Assembly: GCF_902809845.1 (NCBI RefSeq)
Contig: NZ_CADDWI010000008.1
Span: 620,001-684,000 of the forward strand
Length of the DNA: 64,000 nucleotides
From: Chelativorans sp. Marseille-P2723
GTDB lineage: Bacteria > Pseudomonadota > Alphaproteobacteria > Rhizobiales > Rhizobiaceae
Direction of reading: 5' to 3'
A program made the translations under genes and the position numbers. This document shows, piece after piece, positions 1 to 17,676 of the stretch; within the stretch, counting starts at the first letter, position 1; every line of letters begins with the position of its first letter. The notes below the pieces were generated by a model. The model was given only the letters and a program-made list of their open reading frames with translations, searched no databases and was not told the DNA's origin.

Positions 1-1
1 A

Positions 2-1279: not shown

Positions 1280-1286
1280 GGACAAA

Positions 1287-2663: not shown

Positions 2664-2696
2664 GCTATTACTGTTGTACTTGTTGAGGAGAGCGAA

Positions 2697-3563
2697 ATGC
2701 CGCGCATCGCCTATGTCAACGGACGTTATGTCCGCCACGCAGACGCCGCCGTACATATCGAAGACCGGGGCTATCAATTCGCCGACGGTGTCTATGAGGT
2801 ATGCGAAATCTCCGGCGGCTTCATCATGGACATGACGCGGCACCTTGATCGTCTTGACCGTTCGTTGCGCGAACTGAAGATCGATTGGCCCCTGCACCGC
2901 CGGGCGCTGGAGTTTGTCATGCGCGAAGTGGTTCGGCGCAATGGTGTGCGCGATGGTCTTGTATATTTGCAGGTTACCCGCGGCGTCGCCCCTCGCGATC
3001 ACGCCTTCCCCCCGCCCGGCATCCGTCCTGCCCTGGTGGTGACGGCCAAGCGGGTTGCTCCGCATATTGCGGCAATGCGGGCAGAGAGTGGTGTCAAGGT
3101 GATCACGGTACCGGAGAACCGTTGGGAGAGGGTGGACATCAAGACTGTGGGCTTGCTGCCCAATGTGCTTGCGAAGCAGAAGGCGCGTGAAGAAGGAGCA
3201 GCGGAAGCCTGGTTCGTCGACAACGAAGGCTTTGTAACTGAGGGTTCTTCCACCAATGCATGGATCGTCACCGCAGACGGCAAGCTCGTCACTCGCCCCG
3301 CTGAATTAGGAATTCTTCGCGGTGTAACGCGAACGACGCTGATGGATGTCGCAGCGAAACTGAACCTCGACGTCCAAGAACGAGCCTTCTTGGTGGAGGA
3401 GGCGAAGGGAGCACGCGAAGCTTTCATCACGTCCGCCACAAGCGTGGTGACGCCGGTGGTCGAGATAGACGGACAGACGGTCGCCAATGGCCGGCCAGGT
3501 TCCGTCGCACTGTCTCTACGGCAGGCATTTTTTGACGTTGCGGAAAAGCTCCCTGCCTGTTAA
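2697..3563 (+). CDS. dat: D-amino acid aminotransferase
   Basis: A fold-type IV PLP aminotransferase of 288 residues, the usual length. It interconverts D-amino acids and 2-oxoacids, for example D-alanine with 2-oxoglutarate, and so supplies D-amino acids for peptidoglycan. Visible family signatures are the N-terminal YVNGRYV with EDRGYQFADGVYE, the catalytic-lysine segment IKTVGLLPNVLAKQ, and the cofactor-binding EGSSTNAW near residue 184. The ATG follows a GAGGAG Shine-Dalgarno sequence. It lies between trkA and hfq as in related rhizobia. Branched-chain aminotransferases share the fold, but the KT..LLPN segment and gene order favour a D-amino acid enzyme. Confidence 0.88.
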   Translation: MPRIAYVNGRYVRHADAAVHIEDRGYQFADGVYEVCEISGGFIMDMTRHLDRLDRSLRELKIDWPLHRRALEFVMREVVRRNGVRDGLVYLQVTRGVAPRDHAFPPPGIRPALVVTAKRVAPHIAAMRAESGVKVITVPENRWERVDIKTVGLLPNVLAKQKAREEGAAEAWFVDNEGFVTEGSSTNAWIVTADGKLVTRPAELGILRGVTRTTLMDVAAKLNLDVQERAFLVEEAKGAREAFITSATSVVTPVVEIDGQTVANGRPGSVALSLRQAFFDVAEKLPAC

Positions 3564-3627
3564 CGACCTTTGGGGCTGGTAAAGAGAGCTTGCCGGCCGG
3601 GTGCGGATGCAAGGGCAGTCACCGCGC

Positions 3628-3657
3628 TTGACTGACGGGGCGATATTTGCGCTACTT
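3628..3657 (+). promoter_or_regulatory. Candidate sigma70-type promoter of hfq
   Basis: TTGACT at 3628-3633 is separated by 18 bases from CTACTT at 3652-3657, about 34 bases before the hfq start. The -35 is close to consensus and the -10 is of the weak alphaproteobacterial kind. The call is by inspection only. Confidence 0.4.
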
Positions 3658-3690
3658 GCCCGAAGCGCAGGGGATGGTGAAATAAAAACA

Positions 3691-3939
3691 ATGGCGGAAC
3701 GTTCCCAGAATTTGCAAGATTTGTTCCTGAACACCGTTCGTAAGAGCAAGAACCCGTTGACGATCTTTCTTATCAACGGTGTTAAACTTACAGGCGTCGT
3801 CACATCATTCGACAATTTCTGCGTCCTCCTACGTCGGGATGGCCACTCGCAGCTCGTCTATAAACATGCCATTTCCACGATCATGCCGAGCCAGCCCGTG
3901 CAGCTGTTCGATCCGGAGGAAAGCAGCCGGGAAGGTTAA
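3691..3939 (+). CDS. hfq: RNA chaperone Hfq
   Basis: An 82-residue Sm-like protein that forms hexamers, binds small RNAs and mRNA A/U tracts, and controls translation and RNA turnover. Sm1 motif residues are in [15 protein letters not shown], and the Sm2 signature YKHAISTI is near residues 56-63. The N terminus [10 protein letters not shown] matches the conserved start of the family, so the ATG at 3691 was chosen over an in-frame start 90 bases upstream. hflX begins on the very next base after its stop codon, so the two are translationally linked, as in many proteobacteria. Confidence 0.97.
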
Positions 3940-5319
3940 TTGGCGAACAAGAACCATGCAGCCGAGAATGGCGATACGGACGAACTTACTCGTGCCGTCG
4001 TCGTAGTCCCCGTGCATACGGGCCGACAGCGCGCATCGTCAGATGACGGTGGCTCCAAGCCGCGAATGGCTCTTTCTCCCCAGGCAAAGCTCGAGGAAGC
4101 GATCGGGCTTGCCGAGGCAATCGATCTCAAAATCGTTCACAGCGAAGTGGTGCAGATTGCTGCACCGCGGCCTGCAACCCTGATAGGCAAGGGGAAGGTA
4201 GAGGCTCTTTCGAAGATTGTGGACGAGACCGATACCGAACTCATCATTGTCGATCACCAGCTAACCCCCGTGCAGCAGCGCAATCTTGAGCGCGAGTTGA
4301 AGGCTAAGGTGCTTGATCGCACCGGTCTTATCCTGGAGATCTTTGGCCGGCGCGCCCGCACGAAGGAGGGGCGGCTGCAGGTCGACCTTGCGCATCTGGA
4401 ATACCAGCGCGGACGCCTCGTCAGAAGCTGGACCCATCTGGAGCGTCAGCGCGGGGGCGGCGGTTTCATGGGGGGCCCGGGCGAAACACAGATCGAAGCG
4501 GACCGCAGGCTTCTTCAGGATCGCATCGTGCGCATCAGGAGGGAACTGGAGACTGTCCGCCGTACACGAGAGCTTCACAGGTCCAAACGACGCAAGGTGC
4601 CGTTTCCGGTGGTCGCTATCGTCGGCTACACGAATGCCGGTAAGTCCACGCTATTTAACAGGCTGACAGGCGCATCTGTCCTTGCCGAGGATATGCTTTT
4701 TGCCACACTCGACCCGACATTGCGGCGGGTTCGCTTTCCGTATGGAACGGAGGTGATCCTGTCAGACACGGTCGGCTTCATTTCCGATCTGCCGCCGCAT
4801 CTGGTCGCCGCATTCCGCGCCACGCTGGAGGAGGTGGTCGAGGCCGACCTCATCATTCACTTAAGGGATATCTCCGATCCCGACACGGCGGCTCATGCCA
4901 GGGATGTGGAGGACGTGGTGGCAAGTCTCGGCGTGGATGTCTCCGATAGCCAGCGCGTCATCGAGGCATGGAACAAGATCGATCTTCTGAACGAGGCTGA
5001 GCGCGAGCGGCTTTTGCACGACGAGGTCAACAAGCGTCCGCCGGTCGCAATTTCCGCGGAGACTGGGGAGGGGATTGACGACCTTCTGACCGTGATCGAG
5101 GAGCGTTTGTCAGGGCCCGTAGAGGAATTTTCTTTCACGCTGGGGTCGAATCAGCTCGGTCTGGCCGATTGGATATACCAGCATGGCGAGGTGAGGGAGC
5201 GGACGGACCAGGATGATGGAAGCGCCTCATTCCGCGTCAGGGCGACGGCAGCTACACGGGAACAGATCATTCGCAAGCTGTCCGGCAATGAGAAGGGAAG
5301 TGGGGCAACGGGTAGGTAG
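3940..5319 (+). CDS. hflX: Ribosome-associated GTPase HflX
   Basis: A 459-residue TRAFAC GTPase that binds 50S subunits and splits or rescues stalled ribosomes, especially in stress. The N-terminal HflX domain contains the glycine-rich GGGFMGGPGETQ stretch near residues 171-182. The G domain has G1 GYTNAGKST, G3 DTVGF and G4 NKID. The start is a TTG that abuts the hfq stop codon. An in-frame ATG at 4066 would shorten the variable N-terminal extension by about 42 residues and cannot be excluded. It is convergent with mazG, with one base between the stop codons. Confidence 0.95.
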   Translation: MANKNHAAENGDTDELTRAVVVVPVHTGRQRASSDDGGSKPRMALSPQAKLEEAIGLAEAIDLKIVHSEVVQIAAPRPATLIGKGKVEALSKIVDETDTELIIVDHQLTPVQQRNLERELKAKVLDRTGLILEIFGRRARTKEGRLQVDLAHLEYQRGRLVRSWTHLERQRGGGGFMGGPGETQIEADRRLLQDRIVRIRRELETVRRTRELHRSKRRKVPFPVVAIVGYTNAGKSTLFNRLTGASVLAEDMLFATLDPTLRRVRFPYGTEVILSDTVGFISDLPPHLVAAFRATLEEVVEADLIIHLRDISDPDTAAHARDVEDVVASLGVDVSDSQRVIEAWNKIDLLNEAERERLLHDEVNKRPPVAISAETGEGIDDLLTVIEERLSGPVEEFSFTLGSNQLGLADWIYQHGEVRERTDQDDGSASFRVRATAATREQIIRKLSGNEKGSGATGR

Positions 5320-5320
5320 G

Positions 5321-6130
5321 TTACCTGTCTTTCTCCCGCTGCCATAGGGCTTCCATTTCTTCCAGTTGCGCCTGTTCGAGGCTTTTTCCTTTCGCCTTCA
5401 GGCCGCGTTCTATCGCATGAAAGCGGCTGCGGAACTTGTCATTGGCCCCACGCAGCGCGGCTTCGGGATCGATCTGGAGATGGCGTCCTAGGTTCACGAT
5501 GGCAAAAAGCAAATCGCCGAACTCTTCAGCGATGGCTTCATACTGGCCATTGTCCATTGCCTCGCGCAATTCGCCGATCTCCTCCTCGATCTTATCGAGA
5601 ATTGGTCTTGCCTCTCCCCAATCGAAGCCGACGCGCGCTGCCTTTGCCTGTAGCTTAAGAGCACGGGTGAGGGCGGGCAAAGCTACCGTCATATCGTCGA
5701 GATAGCCTTGAGGACCGTCAGTTCCTCCATCGTCCCCTGCGCGTCGCGCCTTCTTCTCTTCGGCCTTGATGCGTTCCCACATTCCCTTCGCCATGCCCGC
5801 CTGCTGTGCATCCATGTCTCCGAAGACATGCGGGTGGCGACGAATCATCTTGGACGTGATGGCTTCCACCACATCGCCGAAATCGAAGCTGCCTTCTTCC
5901 TCCGCCATGCGCGCATGGAAGACCACCTGCAGGAGGAGGTCACCCAATTCTTCGCGCAGATCCCGCATGTCGTTGCGTTGAATGGCGTCGAGAACCTCGT
6001 AAGCTTCCTCGATCGTGTAGGGTGCGATGCTGGAGAAATCCTGCTCCACATCCCATGGGCAACCGCTCTCGGGATCGCGCAGTGCAGCCATGATTTCGAT
6101 CAACCGGGCTATATCCCTCGAAGGCTTCAT
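5321..6130 (-). CDS. mazG: Nucleoside triphosphate pyrophosphohydrolase MazG
   Basis: A 269-residue all-alpha NTP pyrophosphohydrolase that hydrolyses (d)NTPs to monophosphates and PPi, a house-cleaning enzyme. The first MazG domain starts with the family hallmark CPWD (residues 24-27) and EEAYE, followed by the LREELGDLLLQVVFHA metal-binding helix. The second domain has EEIGELREA and EEFGDLLFA. The start at 6130 gives the conserved N terminus MKPSRDIARLIEIM and has a GGAG five bases before the ATG; a longer in-frame reading upstream adds residues not typical of the family. Confidence 0.95.
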   Translation of the reverse strand: MKPSRDIARLIEIMAALRDPESGCPWDVEQDFSSIAPYTIEEAYEVLDAIQRNDMRDLREELGDLLLQVVFHARMAEEEGSFDFGDVVEAITSKMIRRHPHVFGDMDAQQAGMAKGMWERIKAEEKKARRAGDDGGTDGPQGYLDDMTVALPALTRALKLQAKAARVGFDWGEARPILDKIEEEIGELREAMDNGQYEAIAEEFGDLLFAIVNLGRHLQIDPEAALRGANDKFRSRFHAIERGLKAKGKSLEQAQLEEMEALWQREKDR

Positions 6131-6532
6131 GAAAACTCCATCCGTGTGGACCATACAGGCTGCCGCAATGATACCGGCCCCCTGCCGCTTCAACCACATT
6201 TGAGCATACAACGCCACGTTCGACGACCACCGTCATCGCCGGCAACAGGATTGCGGCACGCTCTGCAATCTTGCAAAAGTTGGCATCTGGGTAAAAGGAC
6301 CTGGCCGCAAATGCTGCCTGCGGACGGTGCGTCTTCGACCGGTGCGGCCATCTTCCTTAACACCGATCGCTATGGCAGATCGTGTAAGAAAGCGCCGCCC
6401 GCCACTCGGCTTCCCCCGTCAATGCACCGAAGCAAGACGAGGATGATACCGCAGGCTAGAATGTTAGGCTTCCGCCTTCCCACTGCTTATTACATACTTG
6501 AGTAAATTCGCCTCAAAGCAAAGGAGCCATCT
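6131..6532. other. Intergenic, no gene recognised
   Basis: These 402 bases lie between divergent mazG and the small secreted protein gene. Open frames on both strands are present but have no recognisable protein character and overlap mazG in their longest forms. No RNA gene or clear repeat was seen. Confidence 0.5.
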
Positions 6533-6847
6533 ATGATCCGTTGGTCCGTTGCCACGCTCTCTCTGTTGTCAGCAACGACTTCCGCCTATGTCGAAACCGG
6601 TTCGCCTGTTAAGAACTGCGCTGTTGATCCAGCTCCATCGGCTTGGCACTCCATAAAAACCGCTCCTAAGGACAAGACTATACTTCTAGGCCTGCTTACC
6701 GAAGATGGATTTCTCCAGGGAATTGGCTATTGGGAGGTACGTGACGAGCTTGGGGCTGGCATTTGGTCAACGCAGGAGTGGTGGGGGCAGCCACCCACCC
6801 ATTGGTCTCCGATTCCATCGCCGCCTAATACAGCGGTTATGCCTTAG
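6533..6847 (+). CDS. Small secreted protein with W-x-S-I-K-T-A-P-K-D / THWSPIP motifs
   Basis: A 104-residue protein with a short N-terminal hydrophobic segment (residues 4-19, ending SAYVE) that looks like a signal peptide. The mature part contains WHSIKTAPKDKTILLGL and ends WWGQPPTHWSPIPSPP. This pattern resembles small DUF551-like proteins and phage proteins of the type W-xx-I-x-TAPKDGT...ATHWMPLPEPP, whose function is unknown. A good Shine-Dalgarno AAGGAG lies 6 bases before the ATG. It stands alone ahead of the thiamine-enzyme cluster, and whether it belongs to that cluster cannot be told. Confidence 0.6.
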   Translation: MIRWSVATLSLLSATTSAYVETGSPVKNCAVDPAPSAWHSIKTAPKDKTILLGLLTEDGFLQGIGYWEVRDELGAGIWSTQEWWGQPPTHWSPIPSPPNTAVMP

Positions 6848-7027
6848 ATACCTATAACGTGCTCTGGTCCAAGTGTTGGTATCTAACTGGACTACTATCA
6901 TGTTCCCCGGTTCAAGATTCATTGCCTTGACAGAAGTGGTTATGTAGGTCAGCCTGAGATGACAGCCTTCTGCAGGAGAGAAGGTTTAGCTTAGATATAG
7001 CGAGATCTTCCTTCCTGAAAGAACACG

Positions 7028-7041
7028 CTGTTGATCAACAG
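7028..7041. promoter_or_regulatory. Perfect 14-bp palindrome in the 5' leader of the E1 cluster
   Basis: CTGTTGATCAACAG is a perfect inverted repeat. The flanks ACG and GCGT extend the symmetry if one base is skipped. It lies 26 bases before the E1 alpha ATG, just upstream of the AGGAGG ribosome site (7053-7058). Size and position fit an operator for a dimeric repressor. No regulator gene is adjacent. Confidence 0.45.
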
Positions 7042-7067
7042 GCGTTGGTCCAAGAGGAGGAGACTCG

Positions 7068-8276
7068 ATGTCCGACACCTTGCATGTATCCGAGAAATCG
7101 ACAGTAAGTAATCAGGAACGCGATAAGCAACCCGGTATGCGGCGGCGCACGTTCCTGAAGACCCTAGGCGGGGTTGCCGCCGGGGTTGGCATTATGTCGA
7201 AAATTGATCTGGCCCACGCAGCCAATGGCTGGAATGCCGGGGCCCTGGATCAGCTGTCCAATGAACAGCTGGTCGATATGTACGATAAAATGCTGAAGTC
7301 GCGCTGGTGGGAGGAGCTTCTTAAAGACGCTTGGCTGGCAGGCGAGGACGACCTTTACGGCTATGTTCATCTGAGCATTGGTCAGGAAGCCGTCTCAATA
7401 GGTGCGATCGCAGCGCTCAACGAAGACGACTTCATCGCCTCAACGCACCGCGGTCATGCGCAACTAATCGCCAAGGGCGGCGACCTGAACAAGATGTCCG
7501 CCGAAATCTGGTTCAAGAGCACCGGCTACAACAAGGGCTATGGCGGCTCGATGCACATTACCGACACGTCGAAGGGCATCCTTGGCATGAACGGTATCGT
7601 CGGGTCCTCGCATATCCTTGCCGCGGGCGCTGCCTATGGCATCAAGGTCCGGGGCACCCAGCAGGTTTCCGTAGCCTTCGGCGGCGACGGGTCGGTCAAC
7701 CAGGGGTGGTTCTACGATGCGCTCCGGAACGGCGCCCTCTACAAACTGCCATTGATCATTATCATTGAGAACAATGGCTGGCAGGTCTCCAACCCGACGG
7801 AGAACACCAACCCGCTGAAGGACCTCGCCACGATGGCGAAAGGATTCGAAGTGCCGGGTTACGTGGTGGACGGGCAGGATGCGCTCGCCGTCTATTCGGT
7901 GACCAAGCAGGCTGTCGAAAGAGCCCGCAATGGCGAAGGGCCGACGCTCATCGAGGCCAAGACCTATCGCTTCTACGACCACGCGATGTTCGCCGGAGCA
8001 AAGGTCGGGCAGTTCGGCGCGTTCGGGCTTCCATACCGGTCGGACAAGGACGTCCATGCGTGGATCGCCAATGACCCGATCGAGAAATTCCGGGCTACAT
8101 TGATTGCACTCGGTGTGCTCACCAACGAACAGGCAGACGAAATGGTGCAGAAGGTCAAGGATGAGGTACTGGCATCCTTTGACTACGCGCGCCAGAGCCC
8201 TGATCCAGACGAGGATGCAGGCCTTGCCAATGTTTACGCTGAAGGGAAGGTCGCGGCGAGCCAGTTCTTCGCCTGA
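7068..8276 (+). CDS. Tat-exported thiamine-diphosphate dehydrogenase E1, alpha subunit
   Basis: A 402-residue protein. Residues 25-31 read RRRTFLK, a twin-arginine motif, followed by a hydrophobic stretch (GGVAAGVGIM) and an AHA-A cleavage site near 51. The mature ~350 residues match the alpha subunit of 2-oxoacid dehydrogenases (pyruvate, branched-chain, acetoin): HRGH at 127-130, KGYGGSMH at 156-163, and the TPP motif GDG (206-208)...ENN (234-236). The active-site loop YRFYDH (300-305) keeps the second His of the usual HGH but has Tyr for the first, and Ala replaces the phospho-serine position. Ordinary E1 alpha is cytoplasmic, so the export signal is the odd part. Substrate is unknown. The beta partner follows 50 bases downstream; no E2 or E3 is present. 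Confidence 0.85.
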   Translation: MSDTLHVSEKSTVSNQERDKQPGMRRRTFLKTLGGVAAGVGIMSKIDLAHAANGWNAGALDQLSNEQLVDMYDKMLKSRWWEELLKDAWLAGEDDLYGYVHLSIGQEAVSIGAIAALNEDDFIASTHRGHAQLIAKGGDLNKMSAEIWFKSTGYNKGYGGSMHITDTSKGILGMNGIVGSSHILAAGAAYGIKVRGTQQVSVAFGGDGSVNQGWFYDALRNGALYKLPLIIIIENNGWQVSNPTENTNPLKDLATMAKGFEVPGYVVDGQDALAVYSVTKQAVERARNGEGPTLIEAKTYRFYDHAMFAGAKVGQFGAFGLPYRSDKDVHAWIANDPIEKFRATLIALGVLTNEQADEMVQKVKDEVLASFDYARQSPDPDEDAGLANVYAEGKVAASQFFA

Positions 8277-8326
8277 CAAACCCTCACCACACCGTTGCAC
8301 TCTAATTTAAGGAGCTGTGAAGAGCC

Positions 8327-9304
8327 ATGGCACCGAAACCCGGTACATATGCGATACTGGAAGCAGTTCAGCATGAAATGCGCGCTCAACCCCACCTGAC
8401 TTTCTGGTGGCAGAGCAGCAAGCCCGTAGCGGTCAGCCCCATGGGGCAGGTCATCGACCTGTTCGCGGAGTTTGGCGATCCGCGAGTCCCCTTCGGTACT
8501 GCGATCAACGAAGAATGGTACATCGGCGCTGCGGCAGGCGCCGCCATGTCAGGTGTACCCACCATTGCACGCACACCGTCAATGACCCCGGTCAGGGCAT
8601 TTGACCTTGTGTTCAACCAGATCGGCAAGCTTCGCCATATGACAGGCGGACAGGCTCATATGCCGCTCGTCATCTGGCAGGACGGCGCAGGCCGTGCTGC
8701 AGGTCCGGCGGGACAGCACGCAGACGCAGGACAGGAGTCGCTCTATGCCGCTCTGCCAGGCGTCAAGGTGGTCGTTCCAGCAGACCCGTACGATGCCAAG
8801 GGGCTGATGCATGCCTCGTTGCGGGATCCTGACCCGGTGATCTTTTTCCACTATGCCGAGATCAACGGCGTCCGGGTCGACGTCCCCGATGAGGCTTACG
8901 AAGTCAAGATTGGGGAGGCGATCACCCGTCAGGAAGGCAATGACATCACTATTGTTGGCTATGGACCGGCGGCAGTTGAGATCAACCGCGCAGTCGAAGG
9001 CCTCAAGGAAGCCGGCATTAGCGCCGAGATCATCGATCCAAGATCATTGAAGCCGCTGCCGATGGATACGATCCTCCAGTCCGTGCGTAAGACGGGCAGG
9101 CTCTTGGCGGTCGATCATGGTCACGAGACCCTTTGCGGCGCGACGGAGATAATCGCCCGTTGCGCGATCGGGGTGCCAGGCGCAAAGTTTGCCCGGCTTG
9201 CCTTCCCCGACGCACCGCCTCCAGGTGCGCGCAGGATGATCGAGTGGATGCGACCGGACGCGCCCAAGATCGTAGAGGCTGCAAGAAAGCTCGTGGCAGC
9301 ATAA
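8327..9304 (+). CDS. Thiamine-diphosphate dehydrogenase E1, beta (transketolase-like) subunit
   Basis: 325 residues covering the pyrimidine-binding transketolase domain and the C-terminal transketolase domain of 2-oxoacid dehydrogenase E1 beta. The Glu that activates the TPP aminopyrimidine is present (AINE, E62), as is the active-site His (GQHAD, H131). The GED(V) segment usual near residue 28 is replaced by WQSSK. No signal peptide is visible. Because E1 is an alpha2beta2 enzyme and alpha carries a twin-arginine signal, beta may be carried out bound to alpha; this is inference. A GC-rich hairpin follows the stop codon. Confidence 0.85.
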   Translation: MAPKPGTYAILEAVQHEMRAQPHLTFWWQSSKPVAVSPMGQVIDLFAEFGDPRVPFGTAINEEWYIGAAAGAAMSGVPTIARTPSMTPVRAFDLVFNQIGKLRHMTGGQAHMPLVIWQDGAGRAAGPAGQHADAGQESLYAALPGVKVVVPADPYDAKGLMHASLRDPDPVIFFHYAEINGVRVDVPDEAYEVKIGEAITRQEGNDITIVGYGPAAVEINRAVEGLKEAGISAEIIDPRSLKPLPMDTILQSVRKTGRLLAVDHGHETLCGATEIIARCAIGVPGAKFARLAFPDAPPPGARRMIEWMRPDAPKIVEAARKLVAA

Positions 9305-9325
9305 GCCACCTAGCATTGTCTTGCC

Positions 9326-9346
9326 GGGGGCGGCGCATCCGCCCCC
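9326..9346 (+). terminator. GC-rich hairpin after E1 beta
   Basis: GGGGGCGG / CCGCCCCC form a perfect 8-bp stem with a 5-base loop, 21 bases after the E1 beta stop. The tail is only weakly T-rich (GCTTTCC), so it may attenuate or protect the 3' end rather than fully terminate. Confidence 0.45.
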
Positions 9347-9388
9347 GCTTTCCGAACTGTCATTACAATTCAACCCTAGTGCCAGAAA

Positions 9389-9694
9389 GTGAATGGCGTG
9401 CCCGAAGCAAATGGTTCTTCGCCGCAGTGCGGCAGTTGCGGCGGAAAGTTGGAAGACAAGCTCGTCGACGTCACGATGTGGACAGGTCGCGGCCTTGTCG
9501 TCATCGAGAATGTACCCGCACAGGTCTGCCAAGACTGCCAGGAGCAGTTCTATGAAAAAGACGCAGCCATGAAGATCCAGGAGTTGGTCAGCCAGGGCTT
9601 TCCGAGCAGCCGACTCGTTCGAGAAATCAAGGTGCCAATCTACTCGCTAAAAGAGGGAGCAACACCCGCGCTGCCTGAAGACCACGGGATTTAG
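9389..9694 (+). CDS. YgiT-type zinc-ribbon protein
   Basis: A 101-residue protein with two CxxC knuckles (CGSC near 15-18 and CQDC near 48-51) around WTGRGLVVIENVPAQVC, the signature of the YgiT/MqsA-type zinc finger. Unlike MqsA it has no clear C-terminal helix-turn-helix, and no MqsR-like toxin is adjacent. The start is a GTG with a weak ribosome site; GTG at 9398 is an alternative. It is cytoplasmic by sequence and lies between the E1 genes and the cytochromes. Its role there is unknown; metal handling or regulation are possibilities. Confidence 0.7.
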   Translation: MNGVPEANGSSPQCGSCGGKLEDKLVDVTMWTGRGLVVIENVPAQVCQDCQEQFYEKDAAMKIQELVSQGFPSSRLVREIKVPIYSLKEGATPALPEDHGI

Positions 9695-9706
9695 GAGAAG
9701 ATAAAC

Positions 9707-10135
9707 GTGACAAGGCGTACCCAAGTCTCCCTTTCCAGGAGAGCAATCGCGTTCCTGGGGGGTGCCACTGCCCTTCTTGCTGCATATGTGGGGCAATCCA
9801 CTTTTGCTACTGCGCAGGGCGTCGATATTGAAGCAGTATTCAATTGTTCGGCCGACGGCCCGTTAGGACCGCAGACACCGGAGGAATGCGCTACCGCGCG
9901 TGAGCTGGTGCTCACCAATTGCACCGGCTGCCACACCTTTGTACCGATTGTGAAAGCTCGGAAGGATGATGGCGCGTGGAACGCGACACTTCAATCTCAT
10001 CGGGCGCGCCTGCCTGAAGTGAGCGATGAGGATTATGAAAAGTTAGCAGTCTTTCTGAAGGCCCACTACAACCCCGAAAACGAGCCGCCACAGCTTCCTC
10101 CTGAACTTGAAGCGTTAGGGGATATTCCACAGTGA
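9707..10135 (+). CDS. Exported mono-haem c-type cytochrome (first of a tandem pair)
   Basis: 142 residues: N-terminal signal (residues ~10-37, ending ATAQ) and one haem-binding site CTGCH (72-76). Two further Cys (47 and 61) could form a disulfide. No Met occurs after the haem site. Where small cytochromes of this layout usually have an axial Met after the W...L segment, this one has H98 in LQSHRARL, so His/His ligation is plausible. It is closely similar to the next gene over ~75 residues. GTG start with AGGAG ten bases upstream. The stop overlaps the next start (GTGA), indicating coupled translation. Confidence 0.85.
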   Translation: MTRRTQVSLSRRAIAFLGGATALLAAYVGQSTFATAQGVDIEAVFNCSADGPLGPQTPEECATARELVLTNCTGCHTFVPIVKARKDDGAWNATLQSHRARLPEVSDEDYEKLAVFLKAHYNPENEPPQLPPELEALGDIPQ

Positions 10136-10566
10136 GACCATCCGATCAGAAAATGGGTGTTGGTGCAGCAAGATCCGCTCTCCTTTCGGGTCTTGTGGCA
10201 CTCGTTGCTTTGGGATTGTCACCTCTTGCTCAATTTGGCGCGCACATGGCTGCGGCGCAGCAGCTTGATCTGGAAAAGATCTTCACCTGTGAGGATCAGT
10301 CCACGTTGCCGCTGGATGAATGCAATGTGGGGCGGGAGCTTGTTACCACGAATTGCGTTGCCTGCCATGCATTCGTGCAGATCGTTCTGCGCCAGTATGA
10401 TGAAGGTGGCTGGAAGAGCCTGCTGAACCGCCACAGGGAACGTGTGTCGCACCTATCGGATGAAGAGGTCGAGACCATTCGGCACTATCTGGCGGCGAAG
10501 TTCAATCCGGAGCGTGAGCCACCCGAACTGCCTCCCGAGATCATCGAAGCATTGACCGATTACTGA
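10132..10566 (+). CDS. Exported mono-haem c-type cytochrome (second of a tandem pair)
   Basis: 144 residues: a signal/hydrophobic segment (~14-42, ending AAAQ), an additional Cys pair (53, 64) and the haem site CVACH (75-79). As in its neighbour, no Met follows the haem site. The equivalent residue is H101 in LNRHRERV, and the C-terminal block FNPE.EPPELPPE is nearly shared. The pair therefore arose by duplication and likely forms a small electron-transfer set in the periplasm. Starts on a GTG overlapping the preceding stop by four bases. Candidate acceptor of electrons from the upstream TPP enzyme (inference from context only). Confidence 0.85.
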   Translation: MRPSDQKMGVGAARSALLSGLVALVALGLSPLAQFGAHMAAAQQLDLEKIFTCEDQSTLPLDECNVGRELVTTNCVACHAFVQIVLRQYDEGGWKSLLNRHRERVSHLSDEEVETIRHYLAAKFNPEREPPELPPEIIEALTDY

Positions 10567-10615
10567 TCCGAAAGGCTACGTCTAACCCAGCCACGATCGA
10601 AAAACAGGTCGAGCG

Positions 10616-12061
10616 GTGCTGTTCAATTCCTTTGCTTTCCTGGGTTTCCTGGCGCTGGTGGTGGCAGCTTATTATGTGTTGCCCCACCGCTGGCGCTGGT
10701 TGCTGTTGCTGGTTGCAAGCGGATATTTCTACAGCACCTTTCAACCTGCCTATCTGTTGCTGCTCGCTTACGCGACCGGCGTCGCTTATCTCGTGGGACT
10801 GGGACTGACGGGGCGAGGTGGAACGCGATTTGGCCGGATCCTGCTGGCTTTGGGCGTTATAGGGGAGCTGTCCGTCCTCGCCCTGTTCAAATATTTCGAT
10901 TTTCTGGCCGCATCCATTGAGGGGGCCTTCGGCTGGCTGGCATTGTCAGCCGAGCCAATCGCGCTGCCCCGGCTGGAATTTCTGCTGCCGGCCGGGCTTT
11001 CCTTTTATGTATTTTCCGCAATCAGCTACCTGGTGGATGTCCGGCGCGGATCGATACCTCCGGAGCGCCATTTCGGAAAACTAGCGCTATACATTGCCTT
11101 TTTCCCCAAGCTCCTTGCCGGGCCGATCGAGCGGGCAGGGCCCTTCTTGGCCCAACTTGAGCAGAAAGCGCGCTTTGAGCCTGCGGTGTTCACCTTCGGT
11201 CTGCAGCTCTTGCTCTGGGGCATGTTCAAGAAGGTGGTGATTGCCGACAGGCTCGCCGCATTCGTGGATGCCGGCTTCAGCAGCCCGGACTTTCAATCAC
11301 CTGCCACCGTGCTGGTCGCAGTCTACTTCTACGCTTTCCAGATCTACTGCGATTTCTCCGGCTATTCCGACATGGCCATCGGTGCTTCCGCCCTGTTCGG
11401 GATCAAGCTGATGGAGAATTTCCGCCGGCCCTATTTCGCGAAATCCGTGCCGGAATTTTGGAGCCGCCGTTGGCACATTTCCTTGATGGCCTGGTTCCGC
11501 GACTATGTTTACATCCCGCTCGGTGGCAACCGTGTGTCTACGGCGCGCTGGTACGCCAACGTAATGATCGTTTTCTTGATCAGCGGTCTGTGGCACGGCG
11601 CGAATTGGACCTTCGTCGTTTGGGGTGGGCTTAATGGCCTTTACCAGATTGTCTATCTCATGCTTGGCGGCCTACGTACGCGGGTTGCTGCGCTGCTGCC
11701 CGCATGGCTTTGGAACACCTTGGCCGTCCTCCTCACATTCCACCTGATCACGCTTTCCTGGATATTCTTCCGCGCGGACAGCTTTGCCCAGGCCTGGGCG
11801 GTGATCGGACGAATTCAGGGTTCGCTGCTCCAGATGCCGACCTTGCTCGCTGCCCATCCTTGGACGGGCGAATTCTGGCTGGCGCTTGGGCTGATCGTGT
11901 TCCTCATCGGCTTCGAAGCGCTGGATGAGAAGCGCGGCCTCTGGCAATGGCTGGAGAAACGGCCGGTAGCCCTGCGATGGGGCTTCTACTACACGGTCCT
12001 GGCCTGCCTCGTTGTTGTCGGCCAGTGGGGGTTGAGCGAATTTGTCTATATGCGATTCTAG
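10616..12061 (+). CDS. MBOAT-family O-acyltransferase (AlgI/DltB-like)
   Basis: A 481-residue polytopic membrane protein of the membrane-bound O-acyltransferase family. The start MLFNSFAFLGFL is typical of AlgI-type members. The core signature is present: SRRWHISL, then FRDYVYIPLGGNR, then the catalytic-His segment GLWHGANWTF. Family members move acyl groups, usually acetyl, across the membrane onto polysaccharide or other extracytoplasmic acceptors with the help of a periplasmic SGNH partner. The next gene looks like such a partner. GTG start 49 bases after the second cytochrome. The acceptor molecule is unknown, and no alginate or cellulose genes are nearby. Confidence 0.88.
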   Translation: MLFNSFAFLGFLALVVAAYYVLPHRWRWLLLLVASGYFYSTFQPAYLLLLAYATGVAYLVGLGLTGRGGTRFGRILLALGVIGELSVLALFKYFDFLAASIEGAFGWLALSAEPIALPRLEFLLPAGLSFYVFSAISYLVDVRRGSIPPERHFGKLALYIAFFPKLLAGPIERAGPFLAQLEQKARFEPAVFTFGLQLLLWGMFKKVVIADRLAAFVDAGFSSPDFQSPATVLVAVYFYAFQIYCDFSGYSDMAIGASALFGIKLMENFRRPYFAKSVPEFWSRRWHISLMAWFRDYVYIPLGGNRVSTARWYANVMIVFLISGLWHGANWTFVVWGGLNGLYQIVYLMLGGLRTRVAALLPAWLWNTLAVLLTFHLITLSWIFFRADSFAQAWAVIGRIQGSLLQMPTLLAAHPWTGEFWLALGLIVFLIGFEALDEKRGLWQWLEKRPVALRWGFYYTVLACLVVVGQWGLSEFVYMRF

Positions 12062-12177
12062 CATGGCCCGAATAGGGGACGTGCCGGGGAGGGGGCAACT
12101 TCAGTTAGCTGCGGGATCAGGCGAAGAAATGAACAGGGCTGCGTACCGCATCGGAGAGGTAGAAAAGGCTGTCCCGA

Positions 12178-13155
12178 ATGGTGCTTGAAAAGGTGAAAGA
12201 TTCGGAACAGGCCCGCGAGGGAGCGAAAGGCAATTCAATCCTTCGGCAGTGGGGTGCTTTCGTACTTGTCGGCCTGGTGCTTTATCTTTGCCTCTATGTC
12301 TGGTCCGAGCATCTCGTCGAATCCTACGGCGAGAAGAACCGCTTCTTCATGATCAACTCAATGCCGAGCCAGCATTTCGATGTTGTCGTGCTTGGCGCTT
12401 CGCATGCCATGCCGCTCGACTTCGAAGACATGAATGAGCGGCTGGAGGCGGCGAGTGGCGCGAAAATCATGAACCTTTCGACGGAAGGGGCCGGCATACT
12501 TCCGAACCGCCTGCTTCTGGATTACTTTCTCAAGCGTCACAGTGCCTCGCACGTGATGATGGTTGTGGATTCCTTCGCCTTCTATTCACCGCAGTGGAAC
12601 GAAGAGCGGCTGGACGATGCAAGCTTGCGCAGGGCGCCCTTCGACCCGGCACTGATCAGAACGCTCTGGAGTTACCCATGGGCACGCCGGCTCCTTCCCG
12701 TTTATGTGTCAGGCTTCGGAAAAATTAACAATCCAGACCGTTTTGCGCCCGATATTCCGGACGCCGAGCGGGACTTTACGCGTACCTATCGCCCGATTGC
12801 TCAGATTGACCGCCGGCGGGTGCAGTATCTTTATCCCGAAAACCCCGATCCCGGGATTCTGGCGCACTACGGGGAGGAGTTCCGCGATCTGGCCAGACTG
12901 GTTCGCCAGCACGGAATGGAACTGGTTACGGTTGAGCTGCCAACACCTGAGCGTTATCGCGAGTTGCTGCCCTACGAAGCCGACTTCGAGCAATTCCTCC
13001 AGCCATTGCTTCAGGAGGAGGGGATCGAACACTATGATCTGTCTGAGACGCTGCCGGAGGACGACTACTACTACGACACCGATCATCTCAATCGGGACGG
13101 CGCGCTAAAGGTTATCGACGAGCATCTGGCCGAACTCATTAGCGCTATCAGGTAA
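12178..13155 (+). CDS. Membrane-anchored SGNH-like protein, probable MBOAT partner
   Basis: 325 residues: a single N-terminal transmembrane segment (about 28-43) and a periplasmic domain. VVVLGASHAMPLDF resembles SGNH block I with GASH holding the nucleophilic Ser, and DTDHLNRDGA near residue 300 matches the block V D-x-x-H dyad, in the manner of AlgJ/AlgX/DHHW acetyltransferases. Overall similarity to a named family could not be fixed by eye. Its place after the MBOAT gene supports joint action in O-acylation of an extracytoplasmic substrate. ATG start, 116 bases from the MBOAT stop. Confidence 0.65.
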   Translation: MVLEKVKDSEQAREGAKGNSILRQWGAFVLVGLVLYLCLYVWSEHLVESYGEKNRFFMINSMPSQHFDVVVLGASHAMPLDFEDMNERLEAASGAKIMNLSTEGAGILPNRLLLDYFLKRHSASHVMMVVDSFAFYSPQWNEERLDDASLRRAPFDPALIRTLWSYPWARRLLPVYVSGFGKINNPDRFAPDIPDAERDFTRTYRPIAQIDRRRVQYLYPENPDPGILAHYGEEFRDLARLVRQHGMELVTVELPTPERYRELLPYEADFEQFLQPLLQEEGIEHYDLSETLPEDDYYYDTDHLNRDGALKVIDEHLAELISAIR

Positions 13156-13496
13156 GCGTCTGCGCACTTTGGCAGATTGCGTGCGTCGTGTTCTCCGAAA
13201 GCGAAAGGAAGCTTTTGGAAGCGGTTTACGCGCCCTTGGACGGGTACATCCGCATTACAACTTCAACAAGTTCAGTCTACCGCTTCACCCTGGTTTTTCT
13301 TGAGGAAATTGCAGGTGGTATGCACCATGTTCACTAAACGCCGAGGCTTCGGCGGCCATCAGGACGGGCGCCAGACTGACTATGTTATGACGAACGTTCC
13401 GCCGGATTATAGGGCCGTGCACCACCCGTGCTTCCTGCCGTTTCGCGCCAGCTCGCATCATCCACTGACCGTGCAGCTGTAATTTGCCGCCTCTGC
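13156..13496. other. Intergenic, no gene recognised
   Basis: 341 bases between convergent genes. One open frame of about 100 codons crosses it on the plus strand but its translation has no protein-like character. It marks the boundary between the E1/MBOAT cluster and the thiol-redox module. Confidence 0.5.
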
Positions 13497-14102
13497 TCAG
13501 TTTTGACGCGCTGCAGCGATGGCGTCGATGAGCCCTTGGCGGTCCATCGCGCCGTGGTAGATGCGGGTGCCGACGATGAAGGCCGGGGTGCCGCCGAAGC
13601 CGAAGGCGTTCGCCTGATCCATATTGCGCGCGATGATGCCGTCAACGCGTTCCATGTCCTTCCGGAACGCCTCCCATAAGGCCTTGGGGTCGAGGCCCGC
13701 CCCTGCGATGGCGGCATCGACATCCTCCTTTTTGAGCCTGCCAGGCGTTGCCATCACGGCGTTCAGCGCTTTCTCGTAATTCTCGCCGGCAGCAAGCACC
13801 AGGCTTGACGCGTGAAGCGAAGCGCCACCGAAAATCGGCCAGTCCTTCATCACAAGCCGCACGTTTCCATCCTGCCGCACCACGTCCAGCAACTCTTCAT
13901 GACCGCGCTTGCAGAAGGGGCACTGGTAGTCGAAGTACTCGGCGATCGTCACGTTCCCGTCGGGATTGCCCAGGGCGGGAATCTGCGGATCGAACAGCAC
14001 TTCCTCCACGGTCGGATAGGATTGCGCCAGAGCAGGCCGCGTGAGCGCCGCAATGGCGGCGCCTGCGGCTGTCGTCTTGAGCAGGTCTCGTCTGTTCAAC
14101 AT
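13497..14102 (-). CDS. DsbA/ScsC-like periplasmic thiol oxidoreductase
   Basis: 201 residues with an N-terminal signal that includes NRRDLLK, a possible twin-arginine motif, cleaved near ALAQ. The thioredoxin-fold domain has active site CPFC (FDYQCPFCKRGHEE), an inserted helical region and the cis-Pro loop GGTPAF. Proteins of this type oxidise or isomerise disulfides in exported proteins. It is third in a minus-strand set with a TlpA-like protein and DsbD, the composition of Scs (suppressor of copper sensitivity) loci, which protect periplasmic thiols from copper. DsbD probably keeps it reduced. Confidence 0.88.
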   Translation of the reverse strand: MLNRRDLLKTTAAGAAIAALTRPALAQSYPTVEEVLFDPQIPALGNPDGNVTIAEYFDYQCPFCKRGHEELLDVVRQDGNVRLVMKDWPIFGGASLHASSLVLAAGENYEKALNAVMATPGRLKKEDVDAAIAGAGLDPKALWEAFRKDMERVDGIIARNMDQANAFGFGGTPAFIVGTRIYHGAMDRQGLIDAIAAARQN

Positions 14103-14122
14103 TCTTCTACTCCTTTCCTTGG

Positions 14123-14929
14123 TCAGTCATTCTCGGTCAGCAGTCCGGAAATTCGCGATTGCAGCGCCTCGCGCGAGATCTCGCCGAGATGCGCGTGCCT
14201 GAGCACTCCGTCCGTGCCGATGAAAAGGGTGGCGGGCAGCCCCGGAGCGCCGTAGTGGCGGGCAAGTTCGCCGAATGAATCCAGCAGCACGTGGTCGAGA
14301 GAAATCCCGTTTTCGGTGAGATAACGTTCGATGGCGTCCCGGCCCTCGCCCTGGTTGGCGAACACGAACTCGGCTCCTTCCGTGGACCTCGCCACGTCGG
14401 CCATCATCGGCATCTCGCGCCGGCAGGGCGGACACCAGGTCGCCCAGAGATTGATGACCATCGGCTTTCCGGGTGCCGCGGTCAGCGAGTAGGTGTCGTC
14501 GGAAAGCGTCCGGTATGCGCTGGCCGGGAGCGCGATCGCCTGCGTTCCCCCGGTCAGTTGCCACGCCGTATTCCAGACCATGAGGCCCAGCGCCAAGGGC
14601 AACATGGCCCAGAGGCGCAGCCGAGCGGAGCGCAGCACAAGGAAGACGCTCAGGGCGACTGCGGCAAGCGCAGCCACCCAGCTGAAGCCTCCCTCCCACA
14701 GGGCAAAGATGCGCAGCGGCTCGCCAACGAAGTTCCGCCAATGTTGAGCCACGTGCCCTAAACGAGCCGCCGCGATGCCGCCGAGCAGGACCCACCATGA
14801 CCAGACATGAAAACGGTCGTCGATCCGGCTCGTAATGATGCCCGTCACGAGAATGAAGGTGACGACGCCCAGGGTGACCGCAAAGCGGTCGGCAGCCAGT
14901 ACGAGCGGTCCAAGGGAAACAGCATTCAT
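14123..14929 (-). CDS. TlpA-like thiol-disulfide reductase fused to an Lgt-like membrane domain
   Basis: 268 residues. The first ~120 form four hydrophobic segments and carry ARLGHV...EPLRIFALWEGGFSW, which resembles the core of prolipoprotein diacylglyceryl transferase (Lgt). It is too short and lacks much of that enzyme, so it is probably a membrane anchor of related origin. The C-terminal half is a periplasmic TlpA/ResE-type thioredoxin domain with ATWCPPCRREMP. It likely receives electrons from the neighbouring DsbD and reduces a client such as apo-cytochrome or copper-handling proteins. One base separates its ATG from the dsbD stop, so expression is coupled. Confidence 0.85.
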   Translation of the reverse strand: MNAVSLGPLVLAADRFAVTLGVVTFILVTGIITSRIDDRFHVWSWWVLLGGIAAARLGHVAQHWRNFVGEPLRIFALWEGGFSWVAALAAVALSVFLVLRSARLRLWAMLPLALGLMVWNTAWQLTGGTQAIALPASAYRTLSDDTYSLTAAPGKPMVINLWATWCPPCRREMPMMADVARSTEGAEFVFANQGEGRDAIERYLTENGISLDHVLLDSFGELARHYGAPGLPATLFIGTDGVLRHAHLGEISREALQSRISGLLTEND

Positions 14930-14930
14930 G

Positions 14931-16730
14931 TCAGTACCCCGCCAGCCGGGCAGCAGACGCAGTCAGGGAATTGACGCTCACATTGCCGACGAGCCGGGTT
15001 CCGGCAATCTCGCGCGCGTTCGCGTCGAAGAACAGCATGGTTGGAGGCCCGGCCACGCGGAGCTGCCTCATCAGTTCGGCGTCCCGCGCGTCAAAATCAG
15101 TCACGTCCGCCTTCAAGAGCCGGAAGCCTGAAAGGGCTTCCCGCACGCCCGCGTCAGGAAGCACTCCGCGCTCGATGCTCCGGCACGTAACGCACCAGTC
15201 GGCCGTAAAGTAGACCAGCGTCGGCATGCCTGCCGCGTCCATCTTCGCCTGGAGATCAGCGGCCGACGTGACGGAGCCGAAGTCAAGGTCCCTGCTGACG
15301 GCAGAGGCCTGCCCGCGATCCGCGAACACTGCAAGAGGCGTGAGCGGGTCGGTCGCCCCGGCAGCGGCTCCGATCATGAGAATTGCGCCATAAATCAGCG
15401 AAATGGTTCCCAATGCACGTCCTGCCGTCAGCGCAAGGCCGCGCGGCAGAATGGCCGAGAATGCATAGCTCGCAACGCCGATCAACAGGACCGCCCATAG
15501 CGCGAGATCGACGCCCGCTGGAACGAGCGGCGTCGCCAGCCATATGGCTGTTCCCAAAAACGCGAAGCCGAAGGCACGCTTGACTTGTTCCATCCAGGCG
15601 CCTGCGCGCGGCAGAGCCTTGCCGCCAAAGGCGCCGAGAACGAGGAGCGGCAGTCCCTTTCCGATTCCAAGCGCGAAAAGAGCCGCCGCACCGAGCGCAG
15701 TGTCGCCTGTCTGCGCGATGTATAGCAGTGCGCCCGCGAGCGGAGCGGTAACGCAGGGGCCGACGATAAGCGCGGACGAGAAGCCGAGGGCGGCAGCCGA
15801 ACCAGTCGATCCTCCCCGCCTGCCCGTGCGCGCCGCGATCCAACTCGTCCAAGCCGAGGGAAGCTGGAGCTCGAACAGCCCGAACATGGAAAGCGCCAGG
15901 CCGATGAATACCGCCACGATGACGCCTGTCGTCCAGGAGGATTGCAAGACCATCTGGAGGTTCTGGCCCGACCATCCAGCCGCAGCACCAAGCAGCGCGA
16001 ACGCGGAAGCAAGGCCAATTACGTAAGCGGCGGAGAGGGCGAAGCCCCGCCCTGGAGTGAGGCGCTCGCCTTCCCGCGCCAAGGCTCCGGCCAGGATGGG
16101 ATACATCGGAAACACGCATGGGGTGAAGGCGAGCAGCAGACCGAACAGCGTGAACATGCCCAGCATCAAGGCTATTCCGCCCTTGCCCAGGAGCGACTGG
16201 ACAAGGCCCTCGTCCGCCGCAAGTTGAAAACCTGGAGACTCCAGCCCGCTCTTCGGCTCGACGGCGGGTTCCGAACTCCAGGCGACCTGAGCCCTCGTCA
16301 TCGGCGTCGGGTTGGTGATCGCGAAGGTCACCGGATCAACCAGACGCCTCTCGGGGGCATAGCAGATGCCGTCCTCCTGGCACCCCTGATAGGAGATCTC
16401 GATGGGGTTGGATACGCGATCGGAAAGCACCGCCTCGGCACGACCGTAATAGATCTCGGAAGGTCCGAAGTTGGGATCGTCTTTTTGGAGGCCCGGCGGT
16501 GTCTCAACCGTCAGTGCCGCGCCGTCCGCGGCCCGCGCAGCGATCCTGTCGCGGTATAAGTAGTAGCCCTCGGCGATTTCCCACTCTATTTCGAGCGATC
16601 CGCCGGGACCTTGCGAAGCCGCGATCTTGAAAGCCTGATCCACGGGAAGCGGCTCATCGGCCACTGCGGCAGTAAGCGCAATGCCCAGGCTTGCGAGCAC
16701 TGCCAGGATACCTGCCGCTGTCTTCTTCAT
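14931..16730 (-). CDS. dsbD: Thiol:disulfide interchange protein DsbD (ScsB-like)
   Basis: 599 residues in three parts: signal peptide then periplasmic alpha domain (EPLPVDQAF...; cysteine pair in YQGCQEDGICYAP); a central membrane domain of about eight helices (FTPCVFPMYPIL and IVGPCVTAPLAG hold the two electron-relay Cys); and a C-terminal thioredoxin domain with ADWCVTCRS. It moves electrons from cytoplasmic thioredoxin across the membrane to periplasmic thiol proteins. First gene of the minus-strand set, divergent from the L,D-transpeptidase gene with a putative operator between them. Confidence 0.92.
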   Translation of the reverse strand: MKKTAAGILAVLASLGIALTAAVADEPLPVDQAFKIAASQGPGGSLEIEWEIAEGYYLYRDRIAARAADGAALTVETPPGLQKDDPNFGPSEIYYGRAEAVLSDRVSNPIEISYQGCQEDGICYAPERRLVDPVTFAITNPTPMTRAQVAWSSEPAVEPKSGLESPGFQLAADEGLVQSLLGKGGIALMLGMFTLFGLLLAFTPCVFPMYPILAGALAREGERLTPGRGFALSAAYVIGLASAFALLGAAAGWSGQNLQMVLQSSWTTGVIVAVFIGLALSMFGLFELQLPSAWTSWIAARTGRRGGSTGSAAALGFSSALIVGPCVTAPLAGALLYIAQTGDTALGAAALFALGIGKGLPLLVLGAFGGKALPRAGAWMEQVKRAFGFAFLGTAIWLATPLVPAGVDLALWAVLLIGVASYAFSAILPRGLALTAGRALGTISLIYGAILMIGAAAGATDPLTPLAVFADRGQASAVSRDLDFGSVTSAADLQAKMDAAGMPTLVYFTADWCVTCRSIERGVLPDAGVREALSGFRLLKADVTDFDARDAELMRQLRVAGPPTMLFFDANAREIAGTRLVGNVSVNSLTASAARLAGY

Positions 16731-16795
16731 TGCCCACTCCTTACGTCCCGTGCTGGAGGCAGAACCTCGTTCTTCGAGCCTACTGGGCGACGCAG

Positions 16796-16813
16796 CTTAA
16801 GGCAGCCTTAAGG
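16796..16813. promoter_or_regulatory. Candidate OmpR-type response-regulator site
   Basis: CTTAAGG occurs twice with an 11-base period (16796-16802 and 16807-16813), and the same bases form the inverted repeat CTTAAGG-CAG-CCTTAAG. Direct repeats one helical turn apart are the usual target form for OmpR-family regulators. The site lies between divergent dsbD and the L,D-transpeptidase gene, which is followed by such a regulator. Confidence 0.45.
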
Positions 16814-16857
16814 TAGGAAGGCTTCAGAGCGTCACGGAAACTCAGGAGAGGCAGGCA

Positions 16858-17622: not shown

Positions 17623-17676
17623 CGCCACCAAACGGGCGGGATTTGATGCTCAGGAGCTTTCCATGGAATTCGATCA

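Follow-up and report, generated by a model that had tools for sequence, protein, structure and literature searches.

Why should the gene for the alpha subunit of a thiamine pyrophosphate (TPP)-dependent E1 enzyme encode a twin-arginine signal, and be followed by genes for c-type cytochromes? The question is raised by a locus of Chelativorans sp. Marseille-P2723, located in a 64,000-nucleotide stretch of contig NZ_CADDWI010000008.1 (positions 620,001 to 684,000, forward strand; this whole stretch is hereafter 'the window'). TPP-dependent 2-oxoacid chemistry is generally held to take place in the cytoplasm or in organelles, with acceptors of the lipoyl, flavin or iron-sulphur type. A preliminary description of the locus had proposed an extracytoplasmic 2-oxoacid dehydrogenase coupled to cytochromes, encoded at 7068-10566. 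The five genes that it named were found as open reading frames (ORFs) as described, and Pfam and NCBIfam confirmed E1 alpha, E1 beta and the YgiT finger; its span ended too early, two further genes being part of the same conserved unit. The locus is a seven-gene cluster (7068-13155, + strand) encoding, in this order, E1 alpha, E1 beta, a YgiT-type zinc finger, two cytochromes c, an MBOAT acyltransferase and an SGNH/DltD-like protein. As judged from sequence comparisons, it probably encodes an extracytoplasmic TPP-dependent oxidoreductase that uses the cytochromes c as acceptors, the acyl group being released or handled by the MBOAT-SGNH pair.

Conservation of the cluster and of the predicted export signal

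The cluster was examined in 41 loci: the window, L034, and L048 to L086. The last 39 came from one scan of one-genome-per-species contigs, using an alignment of three E1 betas as the query; this number is a lower bound, because the scan used two peptide patterns. Their titles indicate Alpha- or Betaproteobacteria (one, only 'Proteobacteria'). The seven genes were complete, in one order and on one strand, in 32 of the 41 loci (in L071 and L082 the contig stops within an end gene). Among the remaining nine, eight are truncated by a contig end at the place expected for the missing genes, and L073 (locus positions 1-5419) is one cytochrome short inside the cluster. Both cytochrome genes were present in 38 loci, the exceptions being L073 and, at contig ends, L081 and L085.

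The clear twin-arginine signal attributed earlier to the window E1 alpha (RRRTFLK, with AHA) was recovered, and an RRx[FL] motif was found in all 37 cluster E1 alphas whose N-terminus lies within the contig, the other four being cut at the contig start; one contig was listed twice in this tally, as L043 and L056. The motif was followed by a hydrophobic stretch (by reading) and, in 33 of the 37, by A-x-A; the controls for hydrophobic region and A-x-A used the first RR, which in L080 is earlier than the signal RR, so that the L080 values are not those of the signal. E1 alpha thus combines the three features of a substrate of the twin-arginine translocation (Tat) pathway, namely twin arginine, hydrophobic stretch and A-x-A, and TatC is present in the genome. 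Among 34 comparison E1 alphas, 30 had no RRx[FLIVM] ahead of the domain, and four had one in a stop-to-stop extension. A tree was built from these 34, which other hits of the searches and the present genome had supplied, and from 37 cluster E1 alphas of sufficient length (36 with the RR motif; in L057 it is cut off). The cluster proteins formed one clade, with support 1.0, apart from all others.

Gene order kept in 32 of 41 loci, together with a twin-arginine motif at all 37 complete N-termini, argues for more than chance. We conclude that a predicted extracytoplasmic location of E1 alpha, and its association with the cytochromes, are strongly supported. The preliminary description had suggested tabulating how often signal and partner genes co-occur. 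The counts above (37/37 for the motif, 38/41 for both cytochromes, 32/41 for the ordered set) are that tabulation, and the 41 loci revealed neither homologues mostly devoid of signal or cytochromes nor a cognate E2.

The cluster is rare and patchy in the genomes sampled. In searches that scored the top few candidates of each genome, the window's own E1 alpha and one other stood clearly above ordinary E1s among 199 genomes of the order, and again two, the window's own counted, among 385 of the class; a single match of this kind was obtained among 199 genomes of the family and among 398 of the phylum. With the first cytochrome as query, 1 of 398 genomes of the phylum was positive. Besides the window, the order-level match was genome G161 (E = 5.6e-98, next other genome 9.0e-77) and the class-level match G671 (E = 4.7e-83, next best 1.0e-74). 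Both E1 alphas have a Tat-type N-terminus. G161 contains all seven genes, ordered as in the window; the G671 contig, which is one of the 39 scanned loci, has 4,998 bases and stops within the MBOAT gene. Two other genomes of the window's genus lack the cluster, and around G161 and G671, 1 of 6 and 1 of 4 genomes, respectively, were positive. The genome-contig scan with the window E1 alpha alone yielded no relative. Among plasmid records, 178 match E1 alpha at 1e-50 (36 to 42% identity among the 20 matches listed), and none matches the L034 E1 beta at 1e-60. Cultured carriers include Defluviimonas salinarum (L065), Roseivivax lentus (L069) and Marimonas arenosa (L072). Genes for a cation ATPase, a bacterioferritin-like and a bfd-like protein (by reading) lie beside the cluster of L034, at 12352-17421.

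Features of the cluster in the window
Feature	Position	Strand	Remarks
E1 alpha	7068-8276	+	402 aa; RRRTFLK, hydrophobic stretch, AHA; TPP motif GDG..NN; His305
E1 beta	8327-9304	+	Glu62 and His131 conserved; N-terminal signal not seen
YgiT-type zinc finger (zinc ribbon)	9389-9694	+	Four Cys
Cytochrome c 1	9707-10135	+	CTGCH; hydrophobic N-terminus; His at W+7; no Met past haem motif
Cytochrome c 2	10132-10566	+	CVACH; 4 bp overlap with cytochrome c 1 gene; His at W+7; no Met past haem motif
MBOAT acyltransferase	10616-12061	+	His327; C-terminal FVYMRF acyl-shuttle motif
SGNH/DltD-like protein	12178-13155	+	Long N-terminal helix; Ser74, Asp299/His302 (residues counted from 12181, the start taken for the alignment)
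14-bp perfect palindrome CTGTTGATCAACAG	7028-7041		Shortly 5' of E1 alpha start; candidate operator

Downstream of the cluster, on the opposite strand (window 13497-16730), are genes for a DsbA-like protein with a Tat-like N-terminus, a TlpA-like thioredoxin and a DsbD-like protein, followed at 16858-17622 (+) by a probable L,D-transpeptidase with RRSFL near its N-terminus; all four were named by reading. PADLOC, an anti-phage defence search, gave no match for the four of the seven cluster proteins that were scanned.

Active site, cytochromes and putative acyl-handling genes

The two E1 subunits belong to known families: Pfam E1_dh for alpha (1.2e-69), Transketolase_C (3.9e-23) and Transket_pyr (2.8e-14) for beta. 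Scores of E1 alpha against the NCBIfam equivalogs of pyruvate dehydrogenase (PDH) E1 alpha were both below cut-off (TIGR03182, 280.8 bits for a cut-off of 393.85; TIGR03181, 233.1 for 411.35). As proposed earlier, the TPP motif and the active-site residues are kept: GDG, NN, Glu62 and His131 of beta and His305 of alpha are identical in 40 of 40 aligned sequences (window among them), and the last three align with Glu and His residues of solved PDH E1. In the active-site loop, all 37 cluster E1 alphas have S-x-H-R where solved PDH E1 has Y-R; the 34 non-exported comparison proteins have S-x-H-R (30) or T-x-H-R (4). We take S-x-H-R to be a mark of acetoin-type E1s, and its presence instead of Y-R makes an acetoin-like ketol a candidate substrate beside a 2-oxoacid. 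Acetoin-type E1 activity has been assayed with the dye dichlorophenolindophenol (DCPIP) as acceptor (PMC4275255, on cell fractions; PMC12247030).

The loop that follows His305 is replaced. The motif RGHSxSDRNR, found in 15 of the 34 comparison E1 alphas, occurs in none of the 37 cluster ones; at its position, 35 of these carry YYNHWGxPG...LGAFGYDPLAI, the window and L048 have a related form, and GAFG is present in 37 of 37, versus 0 of 34 others. In known complexes this loop presumably faces the lipoyl domain. When the E2 pieces that accompany a different E1 cluster in this genome served as phmmer query, no E2 was detected in the 41 loci; the same query detected an E2-like ORF in 7 of the 34 comparison loci, which are shorter. 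Reading of the ORFs at window positions 1-20000, where alone E3 was looked for, revealed neither E2 nor E3. The earlier statement that the cluster has no E2 gene is upheld by both approaches. The genome has other E1 genes, one of them beside an E2-like ORF (by reading).

Across the loci, 78 cytochromes were collected, of which the 75 long enough to judge all have a single CxxCH and a His at W+7 (window and L048) or W+9 (other loci). Met is usual where these cytochromes have His, and the conserved His suggests haems with His/His ligation, which is likely in the window cytochromes and probable in those of the other loci, many of which carry a neighbouring Met (in almost every first cytochrome this is at W+14). 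Family matches of the window pair in Pfam and NCBIfam were weak (haem domain of quinohaemoprotein amine dehydrogenase, QHAmDH; SorB; cytochrome CBB3), and 3 of 60 cytochrome members had a Pfam match at 0.001 or less. By sequence, the best PDB matches were again weak (bc1 cytochrome c subunits, 4.9e-5; DHC, 5.7e-4), and a model of a majority cytochrome (predicted local distance difference test score, pLDDT, 91.5) had no PDB match at E 0.001 with Foldseek. The zinc finger protein, whose four Cys are identical in 40 of 40 sequences, scored 42.4 bits with YgiT_finger (cut-off 20.2) and may perhaps act as a maturation chaperone. An antitoxin role of the MqsA type was discarded: although the YgiT finger scores above its cut-off, the MqsA-type family gave 18.7 bits, far under its cut-off of 61.8.

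The MBOAT protein, the only match to this family in the genome, has its His327 conserved in 34 of 34 sequences and an FxYxxF at the C-terminal end in 33 of 34, L084 retaining the Tyr. In MBOAT-SGNH pairs this motif is described as the acyl-Tyr shuttle (PMC12148441). Among solved structures, DltB proteins are the closest to the MBOAT of the cluster; it scores under the DltB equivalog cut-off (TIGR04091, 154.4 versus 375 bits), and carries the shuttle motif on the MBOAT itself. In the SGNH protein, Ser74 is conserved in 32 of 32 sequences and Asp299/His302 in 31 of 31. Its Pfam assignments vary and its profile has no PDB sequence match; the best Foldseek match of its model (pLDDT 93.3) is DltD (E = 1.9e-5), with GDSL acylhydrolases thereafter and PatB at rank 17 (1.5e-3). 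The features of an MBOAT-SGNH pair are therefore found here (MBOAT domain with its His, C-terminal FxYxxF, Ser-Asp-His of the SGNH protein), with a partial fold match.

Ligase and acyl-carrier genes were found near some copies. An acetate-CoA-ligase-family gene lies near 7 of the 41 loci (the two scanned reached 891 and 841 bits, for a cut-off of 729), and a gene for an acyl carrier protein (ACP) with an [LI]DSMD serine near 7; six loci have both and eight have either. In L075 (5585-7606) and L078 (5437-7619), ligase and ACP genes are directly upstream on the same strand, giving a nine-gene cluster. Fatty acyl-AMP-ligase-like proteins, below family cut-offs and with an ACP part identified by reading, are encoded near L061 and L083. 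Most loci, among them the window, showed no ligase or ACP gene nearby; 7 of the 41 have less than 2 kb of flank on both sides.

Sites resembling FNR boxes (TTGAT-N4-ATCAA) were found 5' of E1 alpha in 11 of 36 loci with at most one mismatch and in 24 of 36 with at most two, compared to 2.6% and 14.8% of 3,500 control stretches, a contrast that may be somewhat inflated because the controls were random pieces of the same loci, mostly coding. Nineteen of the 24 sites are located 122 to 199 bases ahead of the RR codons. CRP/FNR-like genes lie near eight loci, and the two that were scanned match FnrL models, below cut-off. The presence of these boxes in many relatives suggests use of the cluster at low oxygen. 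In a further 36 loci tested, the palindrome CTGTTGATCAACAG was not observed in the upstream region. Promoter-like and terminator-like elements numbered 4 and 8, for shuffle means of 2.6 and 6.7, respectively, and were discounted.

Proposed pathway and competing explanations

Gene content and order, the twin-arginine motif, the catalytic residues and the separate clade are read directly from the sequences, and a pathway can be proposed on this basis. E1 alpha and beta would fold and bind TPP in the cytoplasm, then exit via Tat by the signal of alpha; as beta has no N-terminal signal, we can only infer its co-export, by hitch-hiking. Outside the cytoplasm, if the chemistry is that of the family, a 2-oxoacid would be decarboxylated or an acetoin-like ketol cleaved, giving an active aldehyde on TPP. 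Two electrons would then be passed, probably singly, to the pair of mono-haem cytochromes and from there into the respiratory chain, so that the cytochromes would replace E3 and NAD. The acyl group would presumably not be handed to a lipoyl E2, because no E2 gene lies close by and a different loop follows His305. It may be released as the free acid, or be taken by the MBOAT-SGNH pair, a putative acyl relay of the Dlt/Pat type with an acyl-Tyr tail and a Ser-Asp-His acyltransferase. The recurrence of this pair suggests that it handles the acyl product where a lipoyl E2 would be. With respect to the mechanism advanced in the preliminary description, export and association with cytochromes are backed by conservation; a 2-oxoacid substrate and electron transfer to the cytochromes are putative, and the MBOAT and SGNH genes had been left out.

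A bolder version, which we consider unlikely, would be a PDH-like machine split across the membrane, with E1 outside, cytochromes in place of E3 and NAD, and SGNH-MBOAT in place of lipoyl-E2; the acyl group would travel via the Ser and then the Tyr, either back to the inside, to CoA or ACP, or to an acceptor in the envelope. If such were the case, low-oxygen respiration would be coupled directly to the transfer of acyl groups across the envelope or onto it, and the ligase encoded near some copies could recover the inward acyl group.

Several observations weigh against the extracytoplasmic oxidoreductase. The best-scoring E1 profiles are those of pyruvate dehydrogenase, so that the substrates named above are no more than candidates. 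The Pfam TAT_signal score of the window E1 alpha is 17 bits, under the cut-off of 22.7. The window cytochromes are only 20 to 22% identical to those of the majority and lack the N-terminal domain of the latter, and cytochrome family and fold searches were weak or empty. The SGNH model superimposes on DltD with a TM-score of only 0.42. No FNR-like box with up to two mismatches was found for the window and L048, nor for 10 of the other 34 loci tested. Finally, the ligase and ACP genes close to eight loci hint that acyl groups are exported from the cytoplasm, a process that does not call for an oxidising E1. They would fit a Dlt/Pat-type acylation in the forward direction, in which a short acyl group, taken from acyl-CoA or acyl-ACP of the cytoplasm, would be exported by the MBOAT-SGNH pair and placed on an acceptor of the envelope, the TPP enzyme and cytochromes only feeding or tuning the process. 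The acyl-shuttle tail, the SGNH triad and DltD as best fold match argue for this explanation, as do the two nine-gene clusters and the fatty acyl-AMP-ligase-like proteins. We nevertheless regard it as rather unlikely: ligase and ACP were detected near a minority of loci, whereas E1 and cytochromes recur in nearly all, and a pure acylation system requires neither of the latter.

The recurrence of both cytochrome genes in 38 of 41 loci also makes it quite improbable that the exported TPP protein is an acyloin carboligase, making or breaking a ketol without net oxidation while the cytochromes serve another step, even though S-x-H-R is common to 30 of 34 non-exported E1 alphas and the E1 of the acetoin system has been used as a carboligase (PMC12247030). 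That E1 alpha is a cytoplasmic enzyme with an accidental Tat-like N-terminus in an unrelated operon would agree with its sub-threshold TAT_signal score and with the signal-less beta subunit. It is highly improbable in view of the motif shared by 37 of 37 E1 alphas and the A-x-A of 33, the membrane or export features of the partners, and the clade set apart from 34 E1 alphas, 30 of which have no such motif ahead of the domain.

Relation to known systems

Full-text literature searches revealed, among the titles and abstracts listed, no published description of such a system, in agreement with the earlier claim; most subscription journals were outside their coverage, so that absence in print is unproven. 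An exported form of this chemistry, conserved and paired with cytochromes, would represent a novel class of respiratory dehydrogenase and a new kind of Tat cargo, and might also connect oxidation with acyl transfer in a new way. Alpha- and Betaproteobacteria have preserved the seven genes as a unit, and the existence of cultured carriers makes the proposal directly testable.

Parts of the cluster resemble known systems. With the alpha2beta2 E1 of acetoin and pyruvate dehydrogenases, it has in common the fold family, the TPP motif, the catalytic Glu and His, and the S-x-H-R of most non-exported E1 alphas; it differs by the twin-arginine signal, the absence of E2 nearby, the replaced loop, the cytochrome partners and the separate clade. 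PoxB (pyruvate:quinone oxidoreductase) and PFOR also oxidise pyruvate with TPP and without lipoyl E2, as proposed here, but they rely on FAD or Fe-S and reside in the cytoplasm or at its face of the membrane, unlike the proposed enzyme. With MBOAT-SGNH pairs such as PatAB, DltB-DltD with DltX, and those of alginate O-acetylation, the cluster has in common the MBOAT His, FxYxxF and the SGNH triad. The likeness to Dlt extends to DltB as nearest solved MBOAT, to DltD as best fold match, and to the ligase and ACP near 8 of 41 loci; the difference is that the pair is clustered here with an exported TPP enzyme and two cytochromes. SorAB sulfite dehydrogenase and quinohaemoprotein amine dehydrogenase are exported redox enzymes encoded with small c-type cytochromes, as is predicted for the cluster, and the window cytochromes are weakly similar to SorB and to the QHAmDH haem domain; in the cluster, however, the cofactor would be TPP, and His stands in place of Met.

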